Source: Spongiibacter marinus
Lineage (GTDB): Bacteria > Pseudomonadota > Gammaproteobacteria > Pseudomonadales > Spongiibacteraceae
Direction: 5' to 3'
NCBI RefSeq assembly: GCF_016906995.1
Contig: NZ_JAFBBD010000004.1
Span: 1 to 64,000 of the forward strand
Length of the DNA stretch: 64,000 nt
Position numbers and translations under genes: made by a program. Below the pieces are notes generated by a model that was not told where the DNA came from, did no database searches, and worked only from the letters and a program-made list of their open reading frames with translations. Shown here in pieces: positions 31,003 to 57,875 of the stretch (position 1 is its first letter; every line of letters begins with the position of its first letter).

Positions 31003-33603
31003 TCAATACCAGCGGTAAGTACCCTGAATGGCAAAGCTACGTGGCGGCTCAACGAAACCGTAGTGGCCCGTGCTACCGAAGATGCTGTTCGCCAGCGGCG
31101 TGTCGTTGGAGTAAGAAATTACCGTTTCATCGGTTAAGTTCTTAGCCAGTAACGCCACTTCCCATCCAGCAGATACATCTGACAACCCCAGACGCAGGTT
31201 AGTCTTCACGTAGGCATCCTGCTCCTGGCTCGGGTCGAGGTTTTGCGACGAGTTGTAGTCACCGGTGAAGACGAAGTCCGCACCACCGCGGAATTCGATA
31301 TCACTGGTCAGCATCGTGGTGTATACAAAGGTCAAGTTACCAGAGTAATCAGCTACGTACTGGTTGGTCTTACCTTTGTAATCACAATAAGCAATCCCTT
31401 CAGCAGTCACCGTATCTGGCGTCTGTCCTTGATAGCACTGACCGTTTTCATAGTCGGTAAATTCAAAGTCAAGGAAGGCCAGGGCACCGGTCATCATCAG
31501 GTTTTCAGTTAATGCGATACGGCCATCAAGCTCGATACCCATGGTCGTCGCAGCACCGGCATTACCCACATTGAAGCCGAGCGTACCATCAAAGATACTT
31601 ACCTGAAGGTCGTCGTACTCAGTGTAAAATGCCGCGATGTTCAACTCAGCAGCGCCATCCAGCAGCGTTGTTTTCGCACCGATTTCCAAGCTCGTCGCCT
31701 GCTCTTCTTCATACTCAAAGCTACCAACAAGAACCACTGGATCGCCGTTATCTAAGTTCTGTAGCGGACGAATCTGATTGGTTGCCGGAGACGCATTGGA
31801 GCGCGCATCGTAACCACCTGATTTGTAACCACGCGACAATGTACCGTAGAGCATCGCGTCATCGTTCACATCGTACTGCAGGTTCAACGACGGCGAGATA
31901 TTTTCCTCGGTACGTGAGCCACTCAAGTCGTGACGCTCAGCGGAGAAGTTCTTCGCCACAACGGTGTCGATCTCACCCTCATCTGGGCGCTCACCCGTCG
32001 CACGGTTAACGAAGTCTAACTTACGGCTACCATCTTTAGTCTCATGCGAATACCGCAGCCCTATGGTTGCTCGGAACAAGTCTGTAACGTTCCACGTTGT
32101 TTGCAGGAAAGCCGAGAACAGCTCTGTCTCTGTAGTGAAGTAACGGGGGGTGCCCAAGTCGCGAATTGCATCCCCTGCATCACCGAAACCACCCAAATCC
32201 AGCGCGTTAAGCAAACCGGCGTCAGCTGCGGGCTGCAAAAGTGCCTCAAGGGGGGTTCCAGCGAAAAGGCCCAAAGCCACATTATCCAGAGGGCCGCCTT
32301 CAATATCACCCGGTGGGCGTTCACCGCGAGCACCCGCTTCTTGAATATCCGCAGCATTCAACAGCCCGGGCAGGATATCACTGTCTACACGGATGCTATC
32401 AAAGAACTCAAGCTCACTCTTTTGATAGAAACCACCGGCGATAAATTCAAAGGTTTCACCGACAGGCGATACCCAACGAAATTCCTGGCTGAACTGGTCG
32501 TAGTTTTCTTCAGCGCCCACACTGAATACTGGCGCGCCAGTGAAGTCACAGTCACACAGCTCTTCGGTATCGTACCCCAGCAAACCAGTAATGAAAGTGA
32601 ACTGGTGGCCTTCGCGATAATAATCAACGTTCAGCGTGATGTTCTGCGTGTCGTTGTAGCTGTAGTCACCGTTCGACGAACGCTTAAAGTCCTGTTTGTT
32701 GTTCAGTACAGAAGAGTCCGCATCAACAGAGGCCAATACAATGGGGCCGGCTGCAACTTCAGTGAAGTCAAGAATCTCGGCGTAGGTGCGGCCGTTGAAC
32801 GAGCCTGTGCTTGAGGTTGACGGCTGATCATTGATGATTTCGATCTGGCGGCCATCAACATCAAACTTACCTACTTCCAATTTCAAGGCTGCAACCAAGT
32901 TTTCCGTCGCATCCCATTCAAAGATTGCCCGAATGGTCCCCTCGTCGCGCGTTGGCTCGTCGCGATTCAAGGTCAGGTTTTCCATGTGACCGTCGATATC
33001 GCGCTTACGGATCGCAAGACGCGCACCCACGGTATCCGTTAACGGACCAGACAATACCAAATCGATAATTTGCTCGTTGAAGTCGGGCTCGTATGTCGCC
33101 GACACAGAGCCTTCAAACTCTTGTCCGGGACGCGCTGAAATCAAGCTTAGCGCACCAGCAATACTGTTTTTACCAAACAGGATATTTTGCGGGCCACGCA
33201 AAACTTCGACGCGGGCCAGGTCAAGAAAAGGTGCGCGCGTCAGCTGCGCACGACCGTAGCTGACACCGTCAAAATACATACCCACGGACTGTTCAAAACC
33301 CGGGTTGATGCCCGAGCCGATACCGCGAATGTAGATGTTCGTACCGATCCCCGTCTCTGACATTGTCAGGTTGGGTACATATGCTTGCAGGTCTTCAACT
33401 TTGGCGATACCCGCCTCAGCCATTTTGTCGCCGCTCACAGCGTTCACGGATACCGGAACATCCTGCAAGCTTTCTGCCCGCAGTGTTGCAGTAACAATAA
33501 CTTCTTCCAAAGCGGGCGCTGCAAACAGCGGTGTTGCTGCTACAGAAACCGCCGCTGCCAGCGCCGAGCGCCGAAATCGTGCTAATGATTTATTCAAGGT
33601 CAT
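31003..33603 (-). CDS. TonB-dependent outer-membrane receptor 1
   Basis: An 866-residue outer-membrane receptor that would import an unknown ligand using TonB energy. It has a signal peptide (to about 28), a TonB box-like EEVIVTA, a plug domain (about 40-160, with NIYIRGIGSG and VEVLRGPQNILFGKNSIAG) and a beta-barrel ending in an aromatic residue (YRWY). It is very similar to receptor 2, 240 bases upstream, but carries a longer extracellular insertion at about 410-480. GGAGGT lies three bases before the ATG. No siderophore or B12 genes are near, so the ligand is open. Confidence 0.93.
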   Translation of the reverse strand: MTLNKSLARFRRSALAAAVSVAATPLFAAPALEEVIVTATLRAESLQDVPVSVNAVSGDKMAEAGIAKVEDLQAYVPNLTMSETGIGTNIYIRGIGSGINPGFEQSVGMYFDGVSYGRAQLTRAPFLDLARVEVLRGPQNILFGKNSIAGALSLISARPGQEFEGSVSATYEPDFNEQIIDLVLSGPLTDTVGARLAIRKRDIDGHMENLTLNRDEPTRDEGTIRAIFEWDATENLVAALKLEVGKFDVDGRQIEIINDQPSTSSTGSFNGRTYAEILDFTEVAAGPIVLASVDADSSVLNNKQDFKRSSNGDYSYNDTQNITLNVDYYREGHQFTFITGLLGYDTEELCDCDFTGAPVFSVGAEENYDQFSQEFRWVSPVGETFEFIAGGFYQKSELEFFDSIRVDSDILPGLLNAADIQEAGARGERPPGDIEGGPLDNVALGLFAGTPLEALLQPAADAGLLNALDLGGFGDAGDAIRDLGTPRYFTTETELFSAFLQTTWNVTDLFRATIGLRYSHETKDGSRKLDFVNRATGERPDEGEIDTVVAKNFSAERHDLSGSRTEENISPSLNLQYDVNDDAMLYGTLSRGYKSGGYDARSNASPATNQIRPLQNLDNGDPVVLVGSFEYEEEQATSLEIGAKTTLLDGAAELNIAAFYTEYDDLQVSIFDGTLGFNVGNAGAATTMGIELDGRIALTENLMMTGALAFLDFEFTDYENGQCYQGQTPDTVTAEGIAYCDYKGKTNQYVADYSGNLTFVYTTMLTSDIEFRGGADFVFTGDYNSSQNLDPSQEQDAYVKTNLRLGLSDVSAGWEVALLAKNLTDETVISYSNDTPLANSIFGSTGHYGFVEPPRSFAIQGTYRWY

Positions 33604-33796
33604 ATGACCTCCAGATGCCTTGTTTTATTATGACTGACCCCACTGGCGCGAATGCTCCAGTAATGTCCCCTCCAGGATTCCCGCGTCGCATTGCTGCGCG
33701 CAAGGTAATGTGATCGCCGACAACATATACGAAATAAGGTGTCTTCGCAATGTCATGAAAGCTTATCGTTGTAGAGCATATAGCTCAAGGCTAAAA

Positions 33797-33828
33797 GCAA
33801 AGGCGCCGCTATACTGCGGCGCCTTTGC
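33797..33828 (-). terminator. hairpin terminator of TonB receptor 2
   Basis: A perfect 13-base-pair stem (GCAAAGGCGCCGC / GCGGCGCCTTTGC) with a six-base loop, 15 bases after the receptor 2 stop on the minus strand. The following T-run is short (GCTTTTAG). The stem is strong enough that termination is likely. The two receptor genes are therefore probably transcribed separately. The rest of the 240-base gap (33604-33843) holds no gene that I can support. Confidence 0.75.
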
Positions 33829-33843
33829 GTAGCCAGCCTGTGC

Positions 33844-36216
33844 TTACCAGCGCCAGCTTGCTTGAACTGCTACGCTGCGTGGCCTTTCAATAAACGCATA
33901 ATGGTTAACGCTGCCGAAGCTGCTGTTCGCCAAGGGCGTGTCATTGGAATACGACACCACCTCTTCGTCAGTCAGGTTTTTACCAACCAGCGCCAACTCC
34001 CAACCGTCCTTCACATCGGCGATCGCCAGGCGCATATTCACTTTCACGTAGCCATCTTGCTCTTGGCTAGGATCGAGGTTTTGCGACGAGTTGTAGTCAT
34101 CGGTAAAGACAAAGTCAGTGGCCGCTCGAAACTCCATGGCGTCGCCGAAGCTATGCGTGTAGTTGAATGCCAAGTTGCCTGAGTAGTCTGCGACGTATTG
34201 GTTAGTCTTGCCCTTGTAGTCACAGAAGGCGACGCCATTCACCACAGAATCTGGAGTTTGTCCTTGGAAACACTGACCGTTTTCGAACTCAGTGAATTCA
34301 AAATCAAGGAAGGCGATCGCTGCACTCATCACCAGTTCATCGGTAAGCGCAATACGGCCATCGAATTCAATACCCTGAGTTTCAGCCTTACCAGCATTGC
34401 CGACATTAAAGCCGAGGGTACCATCGAAGATACTCACCTGGAGATCGTCGTACTCAGTCATGAACACGGCAACGTTCAGCTCAGCACGCCCGTCCCAAAA
34501 ACTGCTCTTGGCGCCAATTTCTAAGCTGGTTGCTTCCTCTTCGTCGTATTCAAAGGAGCCAATGATGACGCTGCCCGCAGCGTTGGGAGCAGCGCTTGGC
34601 GATGCGTTTGAGCGTGCATCAAAGCCGCCGGACTTGTAGCCGCGGCTCGCCGTTGCGTACACCATTACCTCATCGGTCGCATCAAACTGAACATTGATCG
34701 ACGGGGCGAGCTGGTCAGTGTCTTGAGTGTCTTCCAAGTCATGCCGTTCAATTTTGAAAACCCCCGCTAGAACACCGTCCACCGTACCCAGTGGCCGTTC
34801 GTTGCCCTGCAGGTCAGCAACTGTCAGGCTACGCGAGCCGTCTTTTTCCTCTTCAGAATAACGCAGACCAAAGTTGGCGCGTAAGCGATCTGTAACATTC
34901 CAGGTGGTCTGCCAGAACACTGACCACAATTCAGCGTCTGAGCTGAAGTAGCGTGGTGTTGTGGTATTGGCAATGGAGTTACCCGCCGCTTGCGAGCCTG
35001 TTCTCAATGCTACTGCAGTGGGGATAATCGCACTATCAATCACAATGCTGTCATAGAAATCGAGCTTGCTGGTCTGATAGTACAGGCCACCAATATGCTC
35101 AAAGGTTTCCCCTACCGGTGAGGCCCAGCGAATTTCTTGGCTGTACTGCTCATAGTCCTCGCTGAACGGAATGCTAAACACATTGGCGCCAGTGAAGTCA
35201 CAGTCACAGAGCTCATCAAACTCGTACTCCAATGCCGCGGTAATGAAAGTCAGCGTGCCTTCACCCAGCGCATAGTCAACGTTCAAGGTAAAATTACGCG
35301 TCCGGTTATTGCTGTAGTCCCCATTCGAGGAGCGCTTGTAATCCAATCCGGTATTCAGCACCGAGGGATCCGCACCAAACTGCGCTACAAGAATTTGACT
35401 GTAGCTCGCGCCACCAAAGGCCGGATTCGTTGAGGGCTGGTCGTTCACAATTTCAATTTGGCGACCGTCAACATTGAATTTACCCAACTCGAATTTCAAC
35501 ATCGCCGTCAGGTCTGCACTCGCCTCCCAGTCCAAAATTGCGCGGAAAGTACTCTCATCACGAGCTGGCTCATCGCGGTTCAGGGTGAGATTTTCAATGT
35601 AGCCGTCCATCGAGCGTTTGCGCATCGCGATGCGCGCGCCCAAGGTGTCGGTAAGTGGGCCCGACAAAATAAAGTCGACAATTTGTTCTTCGTGATCCGG
35701 CTCGTACAACACCGATAGCGAACCTTCCTGCTCGTCTCCTGGTCGCGCAGAAATCAGGCTCAGTGCGCCAGCGATACTGTTCTTTCCATAAAGAATATTT
35801 TGTGGACCACGCAGTACCTCGACGCGGGCCAAATCTAAAAAGGGTGCCCGTGTTAACTGGGCTCGGCTATATGAAACGCCATCAAAATACATACCGACGG
35901 ACTGTTCAAAGCCGGGGTTGATCCCAGACCCGATCCCCCGAATATAGATGTTTGTGCCAATGCCTGTCTCCGACATTGACAGGTTGGGTACATAGGCCTG
36001 CAGGTCTTCGATTTTGTCGATACCGGCTTCCTGCATTTTTTCACCACTGACCGCGTTCACCGACACCGGCACGTCTTGCAGACTCTCGGTTCGCAGGGTT
36101 GCGGTTACCAAGACCTCTTCAAGAGCTGGGGCGGCAATCGCTGACGACAGTGGACTTAACCCTGCTGTCATTGCCGCCGAAGCCAAACCAATGGAGCACA
36201 CACGCATTATCTTCAT
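33844..36216 (-). CDS. TonB-dependent outer-membrane receptor 2
   Basis: A 790-residue receptor, paralogue of receptor 1. The signal peptide, TonB box-like EEVLVTA, plug and barrel are all present, and it ends in SWRW. The plug domains of the two proteins are almost identical over more than 100 residues, including MSETGIGTNIYIRGIGSG and SVGMYFDGVSY. Differences concentrate in the barrel loops. The start has AGGAG eight bases upstream. The pair looks like a tandem duplication with divergence in the ligand-contact loops. The ligand is unknown. Confidence 0.93.
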   Translation of the reverse strand: MKIMRVCSIGLASAAMTAGLSPLSSAIAAPALEEVLVTATLRTESLQDVPVSVNAVSGEKMQEAGIDKIEDLQAYVPNLSMSETGIGTNIYIRGIGSGINPGFEQSVGMYFDGVSYSRAQLTRAPFLDLARVEVLRGPQNILYGKNSIAGALSLISARPGDEQEGSLSVLYEPDHEEQIVDFILSGPLTDTLGARIAMRKRSMDGYIENLTLNRDEPARDESTFRAILDWEASADLTAMLKFELGKFNVDGRQIEIVNDQPSTNPAFGGASYSQILVAQFGADPSVLNTGLDYKRSSNGDYSNNRTRNFTLNVDYALGEGTLTFITAALEYEFDELCDCDFTGANVFSIPFSEDYEQYSQEIRWASPVGETFEHIGGLYYQTSKLDFYDSIVIDSAIIPTAVALRTGSQAAGNSIANTTTPRYFSSDAELWSVFWQTTWNVTDRLRANFGLRYSEEEKDGSRSLTVADLQGNERPLGTVDGVLAGVFKIERHDLEDTQDTDQLAPSINVQFDATDEVMVYATASRGYKSGGFDARSNASPSAAPNAAGSVIIGSFEYDEEEATSLEIGAKSSFWDGRAELNVAVFMTEYDDLQVSIFDGTLGFNVGNAGKAETQGIEFDGRIALTDELVMSAAIAFLDFEFTEFENGQCFQGQTPDSVVNGVAFCDYKGKTNQYVADYSGNLAFNYTHSFGDAMEFRAATDFVFTDDYNSSQNLDPSQEQDGYVKVNMRLAIADVKDGWELALVGKNLTDEEVVSYSNDTPLANSSFGSVNHYAFIERPRSVAVQASWRW

Positions 36217-51846: not shown

Positions 51847-52662
51847 TTACTGACCGCCGGATTGGTGGCGTTGTAGCCAGCGCTCCATATCCTGGGTCAC
51901 TAGGTCGAGGTAGGCTAACGCCTTATTCAGTTTGTCGCCCTCACTCTCAGCCCGGAACCCCATCAAGCGATTGCGCACCCAGGCCAATTCGCTGACGAGG
52001 TCACTGATTTGCGGCTCGCTGACACGCGCCGCCGCGGGTGCCGATTTCAATTCCTTGTCTACCACCGAAGTCGCTGGGCTATACAGGCTATCCAGCAAGG
52101 TGTTCAATTTTGCATCGGATTGCGGCGCGCGACCGGAAGTGGCCGCAGGCCGTGTATTCACTGCCGATGACCGCCCTCCTGCTGCCGCGTCGAAAAACAC
52201 ATCCAGTAAGGCATCGCCACTGCGCGGCGCTGGCCCCTCTTGCTTCGTTTTCGACTCGTCAACAGCCTGCCCTGCCGCCTTCAGCAGGCGTTCTCTCAGC
52301 TCATCCGGAATGCGATTGACAGTTTGGTGGTTGATCAACCGGCTCAACATCACTTCTATCGCGCTTGTCGCGCCGACAATCAATGACACCAGGCTCGGGC
52401 TAAGGGCAATTCGCCGCGTTCTGAGCCTATCCATCACGCGTTCACTTAAACGCGCACACTCGGTTAGCTCGACCAGCTCCAGGACGGCAGCGCCGCCATA
52501 GAGGGTGTGAAAGCCGCGGTGGATATCATCCAGTATTCGCTGGCCATCATAGCCGTACTGCAGCTCTTCCAGCTGCGCAAACAAGCCCTTAACAATATCC
52601 TCGGCTTCCGCCAAAAATATCGCCAGGATACCTTCGTGTTCGTTTGCGTCCACAGTATGCAC
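51847..52662 (-). CDS. CheA-like protein with P1 and P3 segments, no kinase domain
   Basis: A 271-residue protein. Residues 8-110 match a CheA P1 phosphotransfer domain; the phospho-accepting His52 is kept in GFHTLYGGAA, where CheA usually has HTLKG. A Ser/Ala-rich linker follows, with LLDVFFDAA and LNTLLDSLY. Residues 219-264 (LVSELAWVRNRLM, LAYLDLVTQDMERWL) match the start of the CheA P3 dimerisation helices in Pseudomonas-type CheA. It then stops: no ATPase (P4) or CheW-like (P5) domain, and the 164 bases downstream are too short to hold them. The start is GTG at 52662. It could carry phosphate between partners but cannot phosphorylate itself. It is the last gene before ccmA. Confidence 0.78.
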   Translation of the reverse strand: MHTVDANEHEGILAIFLAEAEDIVKGLFAQLEELQYGYDGQRILDDIHRGFHTLYGGAAVLELVELTECARLSERVMDRLRTRRIALSPSLVSLIVGATSAIEVMLSRLINHQTVNRIPDELRERLLKAAGQAVDESKTKQEGPAPRSGDALLDVFFDAAAGGRSSAVNTRPAATSGRAPQSDAKLNTLLDSLYSPATSVVDKELKSAPAAARVSEPQISDLVSELAWVRNRLMGFRAESEGDKLNKALAYLDLVTQDMERWLQRHQSGGQ

Positions 52663-52790
52663 TCTATTGTTATTGATCTCAGGCCAGCTGGATCAGCGAA
52701 TCCGGATTCGTAATAGCTGGCAATTATGCGCAAAGTCTTGCAGTAACACTGTTGGCCCGGTCACAAAGGGCCGATTTTGTAATCAAATGG

Positions 52791-53258
52791 TCATGTTTTC
52801 GACGTATTCGTGCAAAACAGCTCACGAATTTTGTTTTCCAGCATTGCCGCCGTAAACGGCTTAACGATATAGGCATCCACCCCAGCCTGCGCGGCGGCGA
52901 GGATTTTTTCCCGCTGCGCATCAGCGGTGACGATCATCACCGGTATATGCCTCAAGGCACTATCGGCGCGAATAACCCGCAGCAGCTCCAGCCCTCCCAT
53001 TTCAGGCATCAACAGATCGGTAATCACTAAGTCAAAGTGTTGGTTGTGAAGCATGGGCAATGCCACGCTGCCATCATCAGCTTCACTAATGCGCGCATAA
53101 CCCAGATCATTGAGCAGATTGCGCATCACACGACGCATGGTGGCGAAATCCTCGACCACCAGAATTCTGATATCGCGCAAGGACGACGCCCCTGGGGCGG
53201 GCGAGTCGCTACCGACATCACTGCTGGCAAAAGGATCGGGGGAGCGCTCATCACTCAT
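52791..53258 (-). CDS. cheY: CheY response regulator with N-terminal extension
   Basis: A 155-residue single-domain response regulator of the chemotaxis CheY group. About 28 polar residues precede the receiver. Acidic pair E36/D37, phospho-acceptor D81 (VITDLLMPEMGG), T111 (IVTADAQ), switch tyrosine Y130 and K133 (AYIVKPF) are all present. Segments EADDGSVALPML and LRHIPVMIVTA closely follow Pseudomonas flagellar CheY. It should bind FliM when phosphorylated. Its start overlaps the fleN stop by eight bases. No cheZ follows, so the dephosphorylation route is unknown. It is 128 bases before the CheA-like gene. Confidence 0.9.
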   Translation of the reverse strand: MSDERSPDPFASSDVGSDSPAPGASSLRDIRILVVEDFATMRRVMRNLLNDLGYARISEADDGSVALPMLHNQHFDLVITDLLMPEMGGLELLRVIRADSALRHIPVMIVTADAQREKILAAAQAGVDAYIVKPFTAAMLENKIRELFCTNTSKT

Positions 53259-54078
53259 GCGGCGCCTCCATTCCAGCGGGCTGCTGAATCAGGTTCTCCA
53301 GAAAAAACGCAAGCTGCCCAGACGGCTTGCGCGGCAAGGGCCAGTCGCTTACCCGCATCGCCAAGTCTCGGAACGCCCGTGAGGCCGTTGCACTCGGGGC
53401 ATAATCGACCACTGGCCGCTGCTTTTTCACCGCCTCTCTGAGCGCCGGATCAAAAGGAATGCTGCCGCTGTAGATGAGACTGACGCTTAGAAATTGCTCG
53501 CAGACACCTGCCAGCTTTTGCACTAAGCCGCGCCCCTCATCTTCGTCGCCAACCATGTTGGCCAGAATGCGGAAGCGTTGGCGCCCGAAATCGCGATTCA
53601 GTAATTTGATCAGCGCATAGGCATCGGTCAGCGACGAGGGCTCATTACAGACCACCACCAGCACCTCCTGACAGGCGTTGGTAAAGGTTAAAACGGTGTC
53701 GGTGATCCCCGCTGCCGTGTCGACGATCAATACATCCAACTGCGCAGCCAAATCACTGAACGCCCGGATCACGCCAGCATGCTGCAACTCACTCAAACGA
53801 GTCAGCTGCCTGGCACCGGAAGACGCCGGGATAATGCGCACACCAGAGGGGCCGCTAATCATTGCTTCTTCCAGTGAGCATTCGCCACTAAGGACCTGCT
53901 CAATAGTCCGCGGGGCCGACAGCGACAACAAAACATCGACATTTGCCAAGCCAAAGTCGGCGTCGAGAATAGCCACACGCTTACCCTGGTGCGCCAGCGC
54001 CACAGCGGTATTGATGGCGACATTGGTTTTTCCTACCCCGCCTTTGCCGCCGCTTACCCCAATAACCTGAACCGTCAT
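53251..54078 (-). CDS. fleN: FleN/FlhG family MinD-like ATPase
   Basis: A 275-residue ATPase of the MinD/ParA group. It has the deviant Walker A GGKGGVGKT (10-18), LDADFGLANVDVLL, VDTAAGI and the FleN-type C-terminal blocks YALIKLLNRDFGRQRFRILANM and SDWPLPRKPSG. It follows Pseudomonas FleN through its whole length, so it is a FleN orthologue rather than MinD. FleN/FlhG sets flagellar number and binds FliM/FliN and FlhF in flagellated bacteria. The N terminus is short and lacks a DQA-type FlhF-activating motif, and flhF is absent here. It overlaps the genes on both sides. Confidence 0.92.
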   Translation of the reverse strand: MTVQVIGVSGGKGGVGKTNVAINTAVALAHQGKRVAILDADFGLANVDVLLSLSAPRTIEQVLSGECSLEEAMISGPSGVRIIPASSGARQLTRLSELQHAGVIRAFSDLAAQLDVLIVDTAAGITDTVLTFTNACQEVLVVVCNEPSSLTDAYALIKLLNRDFGRQRFRILANMVGDEDEGRGLVQKLAGVCEQFLSVSLIYSGSIPFDPALREAVKKQRPVVDYAPSATASRAFRDLAMRVSDWPLPRKPSGQLAFFLENLIQQPAGMEAPHE

Positions 54079-54632
54079 AAAGCTCCTCTCCCAGTAAGGG
54101 AGTTTTGCGGGTATCGATAGCTACCAAAATAGCGGTGCCGGGTATCGAGGTATCGCAATCCGATTTGGGCCAGCTCGCGTCTAAGCAGCCGCTGATGAAG
54201 CGTGGGACAATCAACAAATACCAGGCCGCTGGCACTCGACCACGCTTCCCGGTACGCCTCATACACGGGATTTACGCGCATGGTGCCGAGTAAACCGCCC
54301 AACCATAGCCCAAAGAAAATCAACGCGCTGGGCAGAGCGTAGCGAATCACTGCCTGCATCGCCCCGGAGAGCTCGCGGCTATATGGCCAGAGTACGGTAA
54401 CCACCACCGCTGACATGACGGCGGCCCAGACTGCACCACGCCAGCTGAGCCCGGGAATATCGCTCAGCTGCAGCTCATTAAGATGTGGCAACGACGCTGC
54501 CGGAGAACGCGCCCCGTCCCTCGCCCACAGTCGCAGGCGCCAGTGCGAACCCTGCTCACACTGCATCTGCGCCCAACATTCCAGTGCAGACAGTGAGGCT
54601 GCATCGGGAATAACAAATACCAGTTTATTCAT
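54075..54632 (-). CDS. unknown two-helix membrane protein of the switch cluster
   Basis: A 185-residue protein that I do not recognise. Residues 1-60 form a soluble, mixed N-terminal part (MNKLVFVIPDAASLSALECW). Two membrane helices lie at about 66-83 and 98-117, followed by a 68-residue C-terminal cytoplasmic part (GLVFVDCPTLHQRLLRRELAQ), basic and Tyr-rich near the end. The predicted topology puts both ends in the cytoplasm. It lies three bases after fliN and overlaps fleN by four bases, so it is coupled to both. It occupies the place where flagellar loci hold fliOPQR-flhBA-flhF, but resembles none of them. It could anchor FliN or FleN to the membrane. Confidence 0.75.
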   Translation of the reverse strand: MNKLVFVIPDAASLSALECWAQMQCEQGSHWRLRLWARDGARSPAASLPHLNELQLSDIPGLSWRGAVWAAVMSAVVVTVLWPYSRELSGAMQAVIRYALPSALIFFGLWLGGLLGTMRVNPVYEAYREAWSSASGLVFVDCPTLHQRLLRRELAQIGLRYLDTRHRYFGSYRYPQNSLTGRGAL

Positions 54633-54635
54633 AAG

Positions 54636-55025
54636 CTATCGCAGCGACTGCAAACGTTCGGTGGCACTCACAACCTCGGTCAGCCGAATACCGAGTTTGT
54701 CATCAACCACCACCACCTCTCCCCGCGCAATCAGTCGACCATTGACGAGGACATCCAGCGGTTCACCTGCTTGGCGGTCCAACTCCACCACCGCGCCCTG
54801 CTGAAGTTGCAACAGGTCGCGAATGGCCATGTCACTGCCACCCACCTCCAGCGTGACGCGGACGGGAATGTCCATCACCATATCGAGGTCCGGCGCCGCC
54901 GCTGTGCGCTCTCGAAGCCGGGCCTGCCCCAGCAGGTCAGACGCTCCAGACGACTCTCCCTCTTCCGCTTCTATTTGCTGACGCAGCATCTCACGCTCTC
55001 GCCGCAGGTTTTCTGGCTCTGTCAT
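54636..55025 (-). CDS. fliN: flagellar switch protein FliN
   Basis: A 129-residue FliN. Residues 1-48 form a charged N-terminal segment, and 49-121 are a complete SpoA domain (VMDIPVRVTLEVGG, LLQLQQGAVVELDR, LDVLVNGRLIARGEVVVVDDKLGIRLTE) at family consensus. FliN builds the base of the C-ring with FliM. AAGGAGTGAGG precedes the ATG. It lies 18 bases after fliM. The high conservation argues for a functional protein, not a relic. Confidence 0.93.
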   Translation of the reverse strand: MTEPENLRREREMLRQQIEAEEGESSGASDLLGQARLRERTAAAPDLDMVMDIPVRVTLEVGGSDMAIRDLLQLQQGAVVELDRQAGEPLDVLVNGRLIARGEVVVVDDKLGIRLTEVVSATERLQSLR

Positions 55026-55043
55026 TGCCTCACTCCTTAAACG

Positions 55044-55997
55044 CTATGTGCGCCCTTTTATTTTTAACGCCAACTGTCCCTTGCTCATACCGACACTGGC
55101 CTTGAGTAGCGATACGCCGGATGCGCGAATTTCGGCTTGCTGACAACTCCCCAAGCTCAGCACATCCCCCACTTTTAAATTGGCGACCTGCCCCAGTGTC
55201 ATCGCCTTATCTGCCAACACGCAGCGGGTAGGCAGTGGCGTATCCAGCACGGCGCGCTGCATGGCGCCTTGCCACTGCGGGTCGGGTGCCCGGCTCTGCG
55301 CCAACTCACTCTGAGAGAGACTCTCTCGCAAGGGCTCGAGCATTGCCAGAGGAAAACACATATGCAGCTCGCCACCGCCACCGCCCTCGGCATCCAATTG
55401 AAAACGGCAAACCACAACGGTGTCCGCCGCGCCAACGATATTGGCCAGCGAGGGATTCAACTCGGTGCCCATCGGCTTACACTGCAGTGCGGCAACAGGC
55501 TTGCACGCTTCTTCAAAGTCAGCGTGAGCGCGGCTGAGGAGCTTGCCGATCAGCCGCCGCTCGGAGGGGCTAAAATCGCGACCATCCGGCACACCCTGGG
55601 CCTCACTGCCGCCGAAGTAGATTTCCACTAAGCGAAAGACCAAGCGCGCATCAAAGACCATCATCGCCGTACCCAGTAGCGGCTCTACGCGCATTAAATT
55701 CATACTTGAGGGGATATACAGCGAATGAAGATATTCCGCGTAGGGCGAGAATTGTAGCTCCAGCAGGCTGACATCGACGTCCTGCCCCAGCACGTCGAGC
55801 AAACTACTGCGAAAATGTTCGGCAAAGCGCTTACTCAGTTGCTCTAAACCCGGCAGACGACGTGCCTTCGGTTGCTGCCGACTGGCCAGATCAAACTGGG
55901 CATAGCTGGGCTTGGGCTCGATGCCCGGAACCGCTGGCTCGTCCTTCACGGCGGCCAGTAGCGCGTCTATCTCTGCTTGAGAAAGCAAATCCTTCAT
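55044..55997 (-). CDS. fliM: flagellar switch protein FliM
   Basis: A 317-residue FliM. It opens with the CheY-binding peptide LSQAEIDALL (5-14), which is almost the flagellar consensus, and the FDLAS linker. A CheC-like middle domain (about 40-225) and a C-terminal SpoA domain that would pair with FliN follow. The Gly-rich stretch in the middle domain is unusually long (GGGGG at about 205). The ATG at 55997 fits the family; a GTG 27 bases upstream is less likely. It should recruit phospho-CheY to a FliG-bound ring. Confidence 0.93.
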   Translation of the reverse strand: MKDLLSQAEIDALLAAVKDEPAVPGIEPKPSYAQFDLASRQQPKARRLPGLEQLSKRFAEHFRSSLLDVLGQDVDVSLLELQFSPYAEYLHSLYIPSSMNLMRVEPLLGTAMMVFDARLVFRLVEIYFGGSEAQGVPDGRDFSPSERRLIGKLLSRAHADFEEACKPVAALQCKPMGTELNPSLANIVGAADTVVVCRFQLDAEGGGGGELHMCFPLAMLEPLRESLSQSELAQSRAPDPQWQGAMQRAVLDTPLPTRCVLADKAMTLGQVANLKVGDVLSLGSCQQAEIRASGVSLLKASVGMSKGQLALKIKGRT

Positions 55998-56056
55998 TGC
56001 TGCCCCTGCACCCTCGGCCACCACCAGCCTGTGTTAGTCAAAAAAATGACGCGCAC

Positions 56057-56389
56057 TTAACAACGCTCCCTGAGTACCCGAAGTGTTATTGCCAAATGTT
56101 CCTCAACACGCCGAAGCGCCAGGTTTGCCGCCGCGGAATCTGTGTCCTTTGCAGCACCCTCCAGGCACTTGCACTCCTCAGCCAAAGCCAATGCAGCCAT
56201 CCCTAATGCCCCCCCTTTTAAGGTGTGCGCAATGCGTCGTAGCCGCTCAAAGTCGCTGGCGGCGAAGGCGTCTTGCGCATCAGCGATACGCTGCTGACAA
56301 TCGCGCTCAAAACTCGCGACCAACACACCGATATCACTGCCCATAACCCGCCGAAGTTCGTCGTATTGTTGCTGGTCAATTGTTGTCAT
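56057..56389 (-). CDS. Hpt phosphotransfer protein
   Basis: A 110-residue stand-alone histidine phosphotransfer protein. The phospho-histidine motif is RIAHTLKGGALGMAAL, within a four-helix Hpt fold. The ATG at 56389 has AGGGA five bases upstream; the longer frame starts at TTG. It lies between the FliG-like gene and fliM, where flagellar loci do not carry an Hpt gene. With the kinase-less CheA it suggests that phosphate reaches CheY by a relay from a kinase encoded elsewhere. Confidence 0.88.
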   Translation of the reverse strand: MTTIDQQQYDELRRVMGSDIGVLVASFERDCQQRIADAQDAFAASDFERLRRIAHTLKGGALGMAALALAEECKCLEGAAKDTDSAAANLALRRVEEHLAITLRVLRERC

Positions 56390-56418
56390 AGCTATCCCTG
56401 CAAAAGCCAATAAGCTAG

Positions 56419-57699
56419 TTAGTTTCCAAGTGATAATTTGCGACTGTCGAGCACGATCTCGCCAACACCTGCCAGCCGTTTAGCGGCGGCAACAAGCTCC
56501 TGTTTGGCGAGCTCTACTTCGCCGTTAGAGGGCTCCCCAAGCAGACGCTCTTCAGGGTGCTGACTCTGCAACGCGTTTTGCAATGCCGCACGTAATTCAC
56601 CGGTGGCGCCTTCAAGCGCACGCAGCGCGGTCTGCGGGTTGAGCTGAGATACCAGATTTTTCATATCGGCCTCCGTCAAGCGCTGCAACTGATCAAACCC
56701 AAACATCTGGTCTTCAACACGCTCGGCCAGGCCTGGGCGATGCTCCCTCAAGCCCTCCAATAACGCACTTTCATCGGCAACATCCAGCTCATTAAGCAGC
56801 GCGGCTGCCAGGCTTTCCCCGGTTAAACGGCGACCACTGTGGCCACGCGCGTTCAAGTATTCTTCAATCAACCAATCCAATTCCGCCAACGCAGCGGTCG
56901 ACAGGGACTGCAGCGACGCCAAACGGCTGAGTAACTCCCTGCGTCGCTGGGGGTCAAAACAGGTAATAACGGCCGCCCCCTGCGCCGGCTCCAAACAGGC
57001 GATCAGCACGGCCTGTATTTGCGGATGCTCCCTGCGAAGCATGTCCGCTATGGTATCTGCCGCCAACCACTTCAATTTAGCAATCTGCTGCGACTGCCCC
57101 TGCAGTGCCAGGTTGCTTTTCACTAGGGCCGCCCGCTCTTCACCGAGGGCCTCCTCAAGCAAATCGCGAATATCTTCTGCCTGGCTGGGCCGCACCAGGG
57201 AAAACTGCAGCATATCGTCGTTAAAGCGTGCCAGTAATTGCGCTAGCTGCCCGGCATCCGGCGTTGCCAGGGTGGCCATATAGCCGGTCAATGCTTGAAT
57301 TCGTTCCGGGCTGAATTCACGCATCACGCTTGCGGCAACTTTCGCCTCCAGGGCCATTAGCACCATGGCGGCTTGCTCGGGGGAGCACTGTGAGGTTTGC
57401 CCGTCCAGCCAGTGATCAATCACCGCCGCGACACGCGCTGGTTCATCCTCAGCGGTGGTGCGCAGCAAACGCAAATGAACACCGTAGTCGACCCGTTTAT
57501 GTTTTTTGACTCGGGGTTTGGTCGCTGGCTGCGACATAAGCTGTATAAATAGCGCAACGGCGAGGCTTGCGCCGCCGGACAACAGACTCACACTGAGCCA
57601 CTCCGCCTGCCTGAGCAGCGCCGCGACCGCTGCGCCGCCGAGCAATGCGACCAGCAGGAAAAACTGGAATGTAATCAGCACGCGCGGGGCTATTGCCAT
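56419..57699 (-). CDS. FliG-like switch protein with N-terminal membrane anchor
   Basis: A 426-residue FliG homologue, some 90 residues longer than flagellar FliG. Two membrane helices (about 8-30 and 35-54) and a basic linker (61-70) precede the FliG domains. FliG N-domain: MVLMALEAKVAASVMREFSPERIQAL (112-137). Middle domain with the FliM-contact EHPQ motif (224-227). The MFxF hinge reads MFGF (332-335), and the C-domain ends AAAKRLAGVGEIVL. The segment 342-354 (TEADMKNLVSQLN) stands where flagellar FliG has conserved Asp, Arg and Glu residues that face the stator. GGAGGGG precedes the ATG. It is the first gene of the switch cluster. No fliF gene is present. Confidence 0.88.
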   Translation of the reverse strand: MAIAPRVLITFQFFLLVALLGGAAVAALLRQAEWLSVSLLSGGASLAVALFIQLMSQPATKPRVKKHKRVDYGVHLRLLRTTAEDEPARVAAVIDHWLDGQTSQCSPEQAAMVLMALEAKVAASVMREFSPERIQALTGYMATLATPDAGQLAQLLARFNDDMLQFSLVRPSQAEDIRDLLEEALGEERAALVKSNLALQGQSQQIAKLKWLAADTIADMLRREHPQIQAVLIACLEPAQGAAVITCFDPQRRRELLSRLASLQSLSTAALAELDWLIEEYLNARGHSGRRLTGESLAAALLNELDVADESALLEGLREHRPGLAERVEDQMFGFDQLQRLTEADMKNLVSQLNPQTALRALEGATGELRAALQNALQSQHPEERLLGEPSNGEVELAKQELVAAAKRLAGVGEIVLDSRKLSLGN

Positions 57700-57782: not shown

Positions 57783-57875
57783 AGTAGCACCCGCGCATAT
57801 ACATTGGTTATCAATGACTTACGCGACTAGTTACTGCCTACACTGACTGTAATGCAGGTTTTAGGCCAGCTGAGC

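Follow-up and report, generated by a model that had tools for sequence, protein, structure and literature searches.

Why would a bacterium keep a set of flagellar switch and signalling genes apart from the other genes of a flagellum? This question is raised by a stretch of 64,000 nucleotides from Spongiibacter marinus (Spongiibacteraceae; RefSeq assembly GCF_016906995.1, contig NZ_JAFBBD010000004.1, positions 1 to 64,000), called the window in what follows. Eight intact open reading frames (ORFs) on its minus strand, between positions 51847 and 57699, encode a FliG-like protein, a stand-alone Hpt protein, FliM, FliN, a two-helix membrane protein (TM2), FleN, CheY and a relic of CheA (CheA'). 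These eight same-strand genes had been named in an original prediction made from the letters of the sequence, and were confirmed by ORF reading, Pfam and NCBIfam. Genes for export, rod, hook, filament and stator, as well as flhF and fliA, were not seen among the eight, and the prediction had been right about the missing export gate, hook, filament, stator, flhF and fliA. We lean towards reading this block, the module, as an in-place remnant of the original polar-flagellum superoperon of the family, which would form a non-rotating switch ring on a stripped-down FliF, loaded by FleN and tuned by CheY. A putative FliF-derived anchor, an apparent loss of torque charges and a probable origin by reduction of a superoperon are features that go beyond the original prediction.

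The module stands beside a complete flagellum

The genome that contains the window (G000) has two FliG genes, the second of which lies on contig C8 in a flagellar cluster spanning flgN/flgA to fliA (most names were read from the sequence). Pfam families found on this cluster include flagellin, FlgE, FliD, FlgI, FlhA, FlhB, FliP, a FliI-type ATPase, a FliA-like sigma factor and a sigma-54 activator, and also FliF, FliG, FliM, FliN, an SRP54-type GTPase (FlhF) and a ParA/MinD-type ATPase (FleN). The stator genes of G000 are one MotB gene and an adjoining MotA-like gene; MinC is present and CheZ was not found in this genome. The whole-genome search for flagellar genes and a second fliGMN set, which the prediction had proposed, therefore returned a full set, contrary to its description of a module without a flagellum. 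Since the C8 flagellum has its own fliF, fliG, fliM and fliN, the window encodes a second switch and not the missing part of the first. In the window's genus, seven resident FliMs were read and carry the N-terminal peptide LDPEE[LI]EALM or LEPEEIEALM (the G000 FliM lies at L005, 8141-9094), and the one read from the sister genus carries LDQEEIDALM. A ChpA-like protein (named by reading) and other large Hpt proteins are encoded elsewhere in G000. Also, no che genes were seen in the C8 cluster, and a CheA/CheW/CheD/CheR set lies on another contig (L062).

The module is conserved in Spongiibacteraceae

A module FliG together with a separate canonical FliG was found in 20 of 21 Spongiibacteraceae genomes, the exception being a 70%-complete genome of the family that gave no match. 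The order ttcA-[mini-FliF]-FliG-Hpt-FliM-FliN-TM2-FleN-CheY-CheA'-ccmA, for which the prediction had suggested looking in relatives, is kept with open frames in all 20, barring losses named here and below (TM2 is absent in G145 and G155). Between ttcA and ccmA, export gate, rod, hook and filament genes, which are present at the C8 locus of G000, were not found in any of the 20 blocks, and no gene of another machine accompanies the module there.

No module was seen outside the family among 145 genomes of the order (five of them from the family), a scan in which second FliG matches in G084, G094, G104 and G132 were not read and in which the sole second FliM match outside the family scored 22 bits (G094). 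Among 369 genomes of the class, 192 matched the FliG profile, and the best of the matches listed outside the family reached 296 bits, compared to 464 bits for the window; G211, G380 and G432 have two FliG matches each, which were not read. The mini-FliF profile matched 48 of these 369 genomes, G000 included, most of the matches listed being in frames of FliF length. Three short-frame matches fell outside the family. The one in G200 belongs to an ordinary flagellar cluster, in which fliF is cut short beside a cassette insertion carrying a toxin-antitoxin-like pair and an integrase-like gene (L255, 11183-15021; names by reading), that in G222 lies at a contig start and is not a module, and that in G249 was not read. 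A wider scan of contigs gave at least three module-like loci, judged by score and genus, among the 80 loci listed. Such a module was not described in the titles and abstract openings of the literature searched, a scope that leaves subscription journals mostly outside.

A FliF-derived membrane anchor precedes or is fused to FliG

A separate mini-FliF of 216-340 residues lies upstream of FliG in 12 of the 20 genomes, a periplasmic domain is fused to FliG in three, a hairpin-like hydrophobic stretch with the FliG-binding tail only in four (the window included) and the tail only in one; a full-length FliF was found in none of the 20 blocks. In a comparison with ten FliFs (hhalign probability 96.7, E 4e-10), mini-FliF corresponds to their C-terminal part, and its profile found FliF in the PDB at E 5.9e-5. 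The AlphaFold2 (AF2) model of mini-FliF has a predicted local distance difference test score (pLDDT) of 73.5 and an alpha-beta-beta-alpha-beta core, for which the top Foldseek matches were structures of FliF RBM3 (TM-scores modest, at about 0.3-0.5), followed below by EscJ/PrgK and by unrelated OsmC-type folds.

In the window, the mini-FliF profile matched positions 57394-57564 (E 3.7e-7), and it matched canonical FliF tails as well; in several flagellar genomes the match begins at about query residue 71-77 and crosses the fliF stop codon into FliG. Hydropathy places helices of the window FliG at residues 7-25 and 37-55, in agreement with helices 5-28 and 33-56 of its AF2 model. The first approximately 106 residues of this FliG-like protein are therefore predicted to consist of two membrane helices and the FliG-binding tail of FliF. 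The prediction that fliF is missing from the block holds for full-length FliF but not for this N-terminal part. FliF appears at several stages of shrinkage, as a separate mini-FliF, as a hairpin and as a bare tail. As an observation on a single genome, the module FliG of G155 (L102) has no predicted membrane helix and TM2 is missing, which hints at a soluble version.

The module FliG has lost torque charges and keeps its contact motif for FliM

Five charged residues of FliG, K264, R281, D288, D289 and R297, are those that we take to face the stator. All five are kept in 36 of 36 flagellar FliGs (10 from the family, out of 20, and 26 from the order) if E is allowed for D288 (7 family rows and 1 order row) and K for R297 (10 and 12 rows). 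In module FliGs, R281, D288 and D289 occur in 0 of 20, the position of K264 is R in three and that of R297 is R in one; numbering follows an alignment to E. coli FliG, and a gap in the torque helix makes the exact columns uncertain. The EHPQ motif, which makes the FliG-FliM contact, is invariant in all 20 module FliGs, and the best Foldseek matches of the AF2 model of the window FliG are C-ring FliGs. Similarly, all 20 module FliMs carry the CheY/FlhG-binding peptide [LM]SQxE[IV]DALL. Module and resident FliM share 28% identity, as compared to 36-40% between the window FliM and the best FliMs of the order.

Signalling proteins of the module

The phosphorylatable His of the module Hpt is present in 18 of 18 sequences and that of CheA' in 19 of 20, G154 having Asp instead. 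The acceptor Asp of CheY is found in 18 of 20 modules, with Glu in G158 and a loss in G154; the second residue of the acidic pocket is Gly or Ser in a clade of seven members and is altered in three more. Loss of the CheY phosphorylation site and the His-to-Asp change of the CheA relic coincide in G154 (L099), a parallel loss of phospho-input. G154 keeps FleN and the FliM peptide. In G063 and G145, which lack FleN, the peptide is likewise present, together with a standard CheY; it is thus retained in genomes where only CheY or only FleN, its likely partners, is intact.

The P1 domain of CheA' (15 of 20 sequences aligned) matched that of Marinomonas-type flagellar CheA with an hhalign probability of 99.3% (E 3e-20). 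A profile of the P3 part, built from 17 of the 20 sequences, scored 28.5 bits against the Marinomonas-type CheA, when 200 shuffles gave at most 5.0, and did not match the genome's own C2 CheA; the sister-genus CheA' proteins (162 and 164 residues) stand outside this profile and look too short for P1 and P3 together. Neither a P4 kinase nor a P5 CheW-binding domain was found in the window relic with Pfam and NCBIfam. The description of a kinase-less CheA in the original prediction is upheld, and a P3-like dimerisation helix has to be added to it. In an alignment with resident FleN, the module FleN keeps its P-loop (a deviant Walker A motif), DTAAGI and the C-terminal FFV-type amphipathic helix in 18 of 18 cases, and it can by these features be assigned to the FlhG/FleN ATPases.

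The module probably arose by reduction of a superoperon

In the genomes of two relatives (G037 and G044), one strand carries fliF-fliG-fliH-fliI...fliK-fliL-fliM-fliN-fliP-flhB-flhA-flhF-fleN-fliA-cheY-cheZ-cheA...DUF2802-ccmA, and G097 shows the same arrangement except that FleN is missing between flhF and fliA. More widely, fliM and ccmA both gave matches in 35 non-family genomes, 17 of which have the two on a single contig. In 13 genomes, all among these 17, the two genes share a strand and are no more than 50 kb apart, and fliG precedes fliM on the same strand and contig in 11 of these 13. Linkage was judged by this distance in place of BLAST searches of the neighbours of ccmA, which detected CheW/DUF2802/ParP in 1 of 28 loci (1.5 kb flanks) and a FliK-like match in one other. 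Of 78 canonical loci (one HdN1 locus is counted twice), 32 encode a module-like Hpt about 5.5-8.5 kb downstream of fliG. In 13 of the 32 this Hpt is followed by a FliK-like motif; a simple motif search found none in the rest, four of which have little room. Because BLAST found no Hpt in G037, G044 or G097, the ancestral place of Hpt rests on the 32 of 78 loci. Apart from the genes missing in between, the module is collinear with the superoperon and keeps its place at the ccm end, whereas TM2 has been added.

In a first FliM tree the module was nested among FliMs of the order, with f37 as its nearest neighbour (92/85); the 25 order FliMs used were the best-scoring of 95 non-family order genomes matched, a choice that favours nesting. 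A second tree, enlarged to 69 rows by 16 FliMs that are mostly divergent and by 8 from resident flagella of the family, placed the 20 module FliMs with the common FliMs of the order (86/84) and put the 8 resident sequences beside divergent ones from families f35, f14 and f8 (96/89), although the nearest module neighbour is here the long-branched G107 and the sister differs from that of the first tree. This grouping suggests that the resident flagellum is of another, divergent type and that the module descends from the common type. A FliG tree (56 rows) set the module apart from flagellar FliGs (95/94), not nested among those of the order, and in contrast to the FliM tree it placed the resident FliG beside HdN1 (99/99); its long branches make it uninformative on the origin of the module. 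In summary, gene order and FliM phylogeny argue for an in-situ reduction of the fliF...cheA-ccmA superoperon of relatives.

Selection on the module and a shared upstream element

The ratios of nonsynonymous to synonymous substitution rates (dN/dS), calculated for three close pairs with our own Nei-Gojobori script, were 0.025-0.035 for FliM, 0.047-0.056 for FliN, 0.034-0.038 for FleN and 0.039-0.099 for FliG, when 0.049-0.210 was obtained for the neighbouring ccmA. These values indicate strong purifying selection on FliM, FliN and FleN. Mini-FliF is under looser constraint (0.20 and 0.33). The claim that the set is not decaying is in agreement with these values, for a C-ring set that is under selection and is not the switch of a flagellum encoded around it.

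The gap between ttcA and the module contains the pattern TGG-N9-TGC in 18 of 20 genomes of the family, as compared to a mean of 1.3 and a largest value of 6 of 20 in 1000 mononucleotide shuffles; the pattern was picked after the sites had been seen, and the genomes are related and not independent. The two modules of the sister genus (G063 and G145) lack the element. In the window, TGGCCTAAAACCTGCA is the only match to the family pattern (0.10 expected), and on its own it is weak, with 4 mismatches to the textbook sigma-54 consensus, the commonest outcome in shuffles. Sigma-54-like sites with one mismatch each occur in three of eight C8 upstream stretches, those of flgB, fliD and fliK.

Proposed function and alternative explanations

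What remains would serve to assemble and load a switch ring and to bind CheY or FleN, and the parts for torque, secretion and propulsion appear to be gone. Together with the literature on FlhG and FliM, this composition leads us to propose a ring that stays static in the membrane and, under the control of CheY, captures FleN or lets it go. FleN would load FliM and FliN onto membrane-bound FliG via the EIDALL peptide of FliM, Hpt and P1 would pass phosphate from kinases encoded elsewhere to CheY, and CheY would compete with FleN for the same peptide. Occupancy of the ring could then serve as a switchable membrane platform, probably at the pole, whose likeliest output would be the amount of FleN held or released and thereby flagellar gene expression or the number or placement of the resident flagellum. 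Ring assembly, polar site, kinase feed and output are what we infer from the sequences. Somewhat short of an even chance, in our estimate, is the wider view that a rotary-motor switch has turned into a free-standing signalling organelle with neither motor nor secretion, loaded by a MinD-like ATPase, read by CheY and kept throughout the history of the family after its own flagellum had given way to another.

With the flagellar C- and MS-ring of gammaproteobacterial polar flagella the module has in common homologous parts, the FliF tail, EHPQ, the FliM peptide and the order of FleN and CheY, but it lacks export gate, rod, hook and filament, its FliF is reduced, the torque charges are lost and a second, complete flagellum is present. 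FlhG reportedly binds FliM via the FliM N-terminus in monotrichous species, and acts on FleQ/FlrA (PMC12826062). The module resembles this assembly checkpoint in encoding a MinD-like ATPase together with a FliM that bears the N-terminal peptide, and differs in that FlhF, FliA and FleQ are missing and that its ring would not belong to a flagellum under construction. In Campylobacter the C-ring is reportedly needed for polar FlhG and used for division control, which sets a precedent for a non-motility role via FlhG, although that ring belongs to a working flagellum (PMC6946799). Spirochaetes also have a second FliG with a specialised role, located asymmetrically, but their FliG1 is said to act in torque, and the passages on this duplicate FliG describe neither a second FliM/FliN/CheY set nor a FliF fusion (PMC7225975).

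Several observations weigh against the proposed FleN-loaded ring. Two of the 20 genomes (G063 and G145) have neither FleN nor Hpt in the module, and G155 has neither membrane anchor nor TM2, so neither a private FleN nor the anchor is indispensable everywhere. All 20 module genomes also have a flagellar FliG, so the module may not be independent of the flagellum. The AF2 models are of moderate confidence (predicted TM-scores, pTM, of 0.40 and 0.33), and TM2, CheA' and Hpt show looser dN/dS values of 0.19-0.29 in the window's own pair. By our reading of the alignment, the full acidic pocket/Thr/Lys set of CheY is standard in 10 of 20 modules only, among them the window copy; phospho-CheY as the input, as originally predicted, fits the acceptor Asp and the window but not the whole pocket across the family. 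Also, no stable contact of FlhG with a C-ring protein was detected in Campylobacter (PMC6946799).

Among the alternatives, the one that we take most seriously, while judging it rather unlikely, regards the module as an accessory of the resident flagellum, its FliM, FliN and CheY mixing into or docking on the motor and supplying canonical CheY control. The resident FliM, whose peptide is altered (LDPEELEALM in the window's genome, altered in all seven read from the genus), may lack such control, a canonical FliG accompanies all 20 modules, and the sigma-54-like site is common to C8 flgB, fliD and fliK. However, an own FliG and a FliF-type anchor would be superfluous in a docking part, the module FliG lacks the stator-facing charges, and the two FliMs share only 28% identity. 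A little less probable still is a phosphate or CheY hub that would serve other machinery, such as type IV pili, instead of a FleN platform. The module does have CheY and two Hpt-type proteins but no kinase, CheZ is missing from the genome, and the ChpA-like and other large Hpt proteins are at hand elsewhere; yet in none of the 20 genomes is the module accompanied by a gene of other machinery between ttcA and ccmA, and half of the CheY pockets (10 of 20) deviate from the standard, whereas FliM keeps its motifs, as does FleN wherever it occurs.

That the module is a slowly decaying, functionless relic seems improbable to us. Its origin by massive gene loss, its fast-evolving FliG and the losses of the periplasmic domain, anchor, FleN, TM2 or phosphosites in some species would suit a relic, but dN/dS values of 0.025-0.10 for FliM, FliN, FleN and FliG, near or under those of ccmA (0.05-0.21) in three pairs, the retention of open frames and gene order in all 20 genomes, and the conserved upstream site speak against it. 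The gene names alone would suggest a split-off switch operon of the resident flagellum, the case that the original prediction had named as its own refutation; this we regard as practically excluded, given that the C8 cluster has its own fliF, fliG, fliM and fliN and that the resident FliG keeps the torque charges.

Features of the window

Pfam families over cut-off in the block are FliG N, M and C, Hpt, FliM, FliN, a ParA/MinD-type ATPase, a receiver domain and a second Hpt (CheA P1). NCBIfam cut-offs were reached by FliM (TIGR01397, 230 bits) and FliN (TIGR02480), but not by FliG (150.7 as compared to 226.7 bits) or CheY (best model PRK10610, a CheY model, 153.5 bits; cut-off 189); TM2 reached no Pfam or NCBIfam cut-off. 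Some start codons are uncertain, and the window FliM possibly begins at an inner ATG before KDLLSQAEIDALL. Upstream of the block lie ttcA and a divergent malate dehydrogenase gene, and downstream ccmABC and further ccm genes (names read from the sequence). The coordinates are given in Table 1.

Table 1. Coordinates of the module and its upstream element in the window.
Feature	Position	Strand	Remark
Sigma-54-like promoter element TGGCCTAAAACCTGCA	57853..57868	-	in ttcA-module gap; family pattern TGG-N9-TGC
FliG residues 1-58, predicted two-helix membrane hairpin	57526..57699	-	would replace FliF membrane helices and periplasmic domain
FliG residues 72-106, putative FliF C-terminal FliG-binding tail fused to FliG	57382..57486	-	mini-FliF profile match
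FliG N, M and C domains	56419..57381	-	Pfam; EHPQ kept, torque charges lost
Stand-alone Hpt, His62 at 56225-56227	56057..56410	-	Pfam
FliM, CheY/FlhG-binding peptide LLSQAEIDALL at about 55956-55988	55044..56024	-	TIGR01397
FliN	54636..55025	-	TIGR02480
Two-helix membrane protein TM2, no family assigned	54075..54632	-	present in 18/20 modules
FleN/FlhG paralogue, MinD-like ATPase	53251..54078	-	P-loop and DTAAGI
CheY, acceptor Asp81 at 53016-53018	52791..53258	-	PRK10610 match
CheA relic: P1 (His52 at 52507-52509), linker, P3-like helix; P4 kinase and P5 lacking	51847..52662	-	hhalign, profile

Weak relatives of TM2 (21-26% identity) were noticed in other families of the order. Elsewhere in the window (31003-36216), two neighbouring TonB-receptor-like genes have nearly identical N-terminal sequences and are apparently a tandem duplicate.

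Implications

If the proposed reading is true, the C-ring would be separable from rotation and export and able to live as a signalling platform. Spongiibacteraceae would then offer a natural experiment on which C-ring contacts serve switching and which serve the FlhG/FleN control of flagellar number and polarity, and a case in which one flagellum gave way to another but its old switch was retained.

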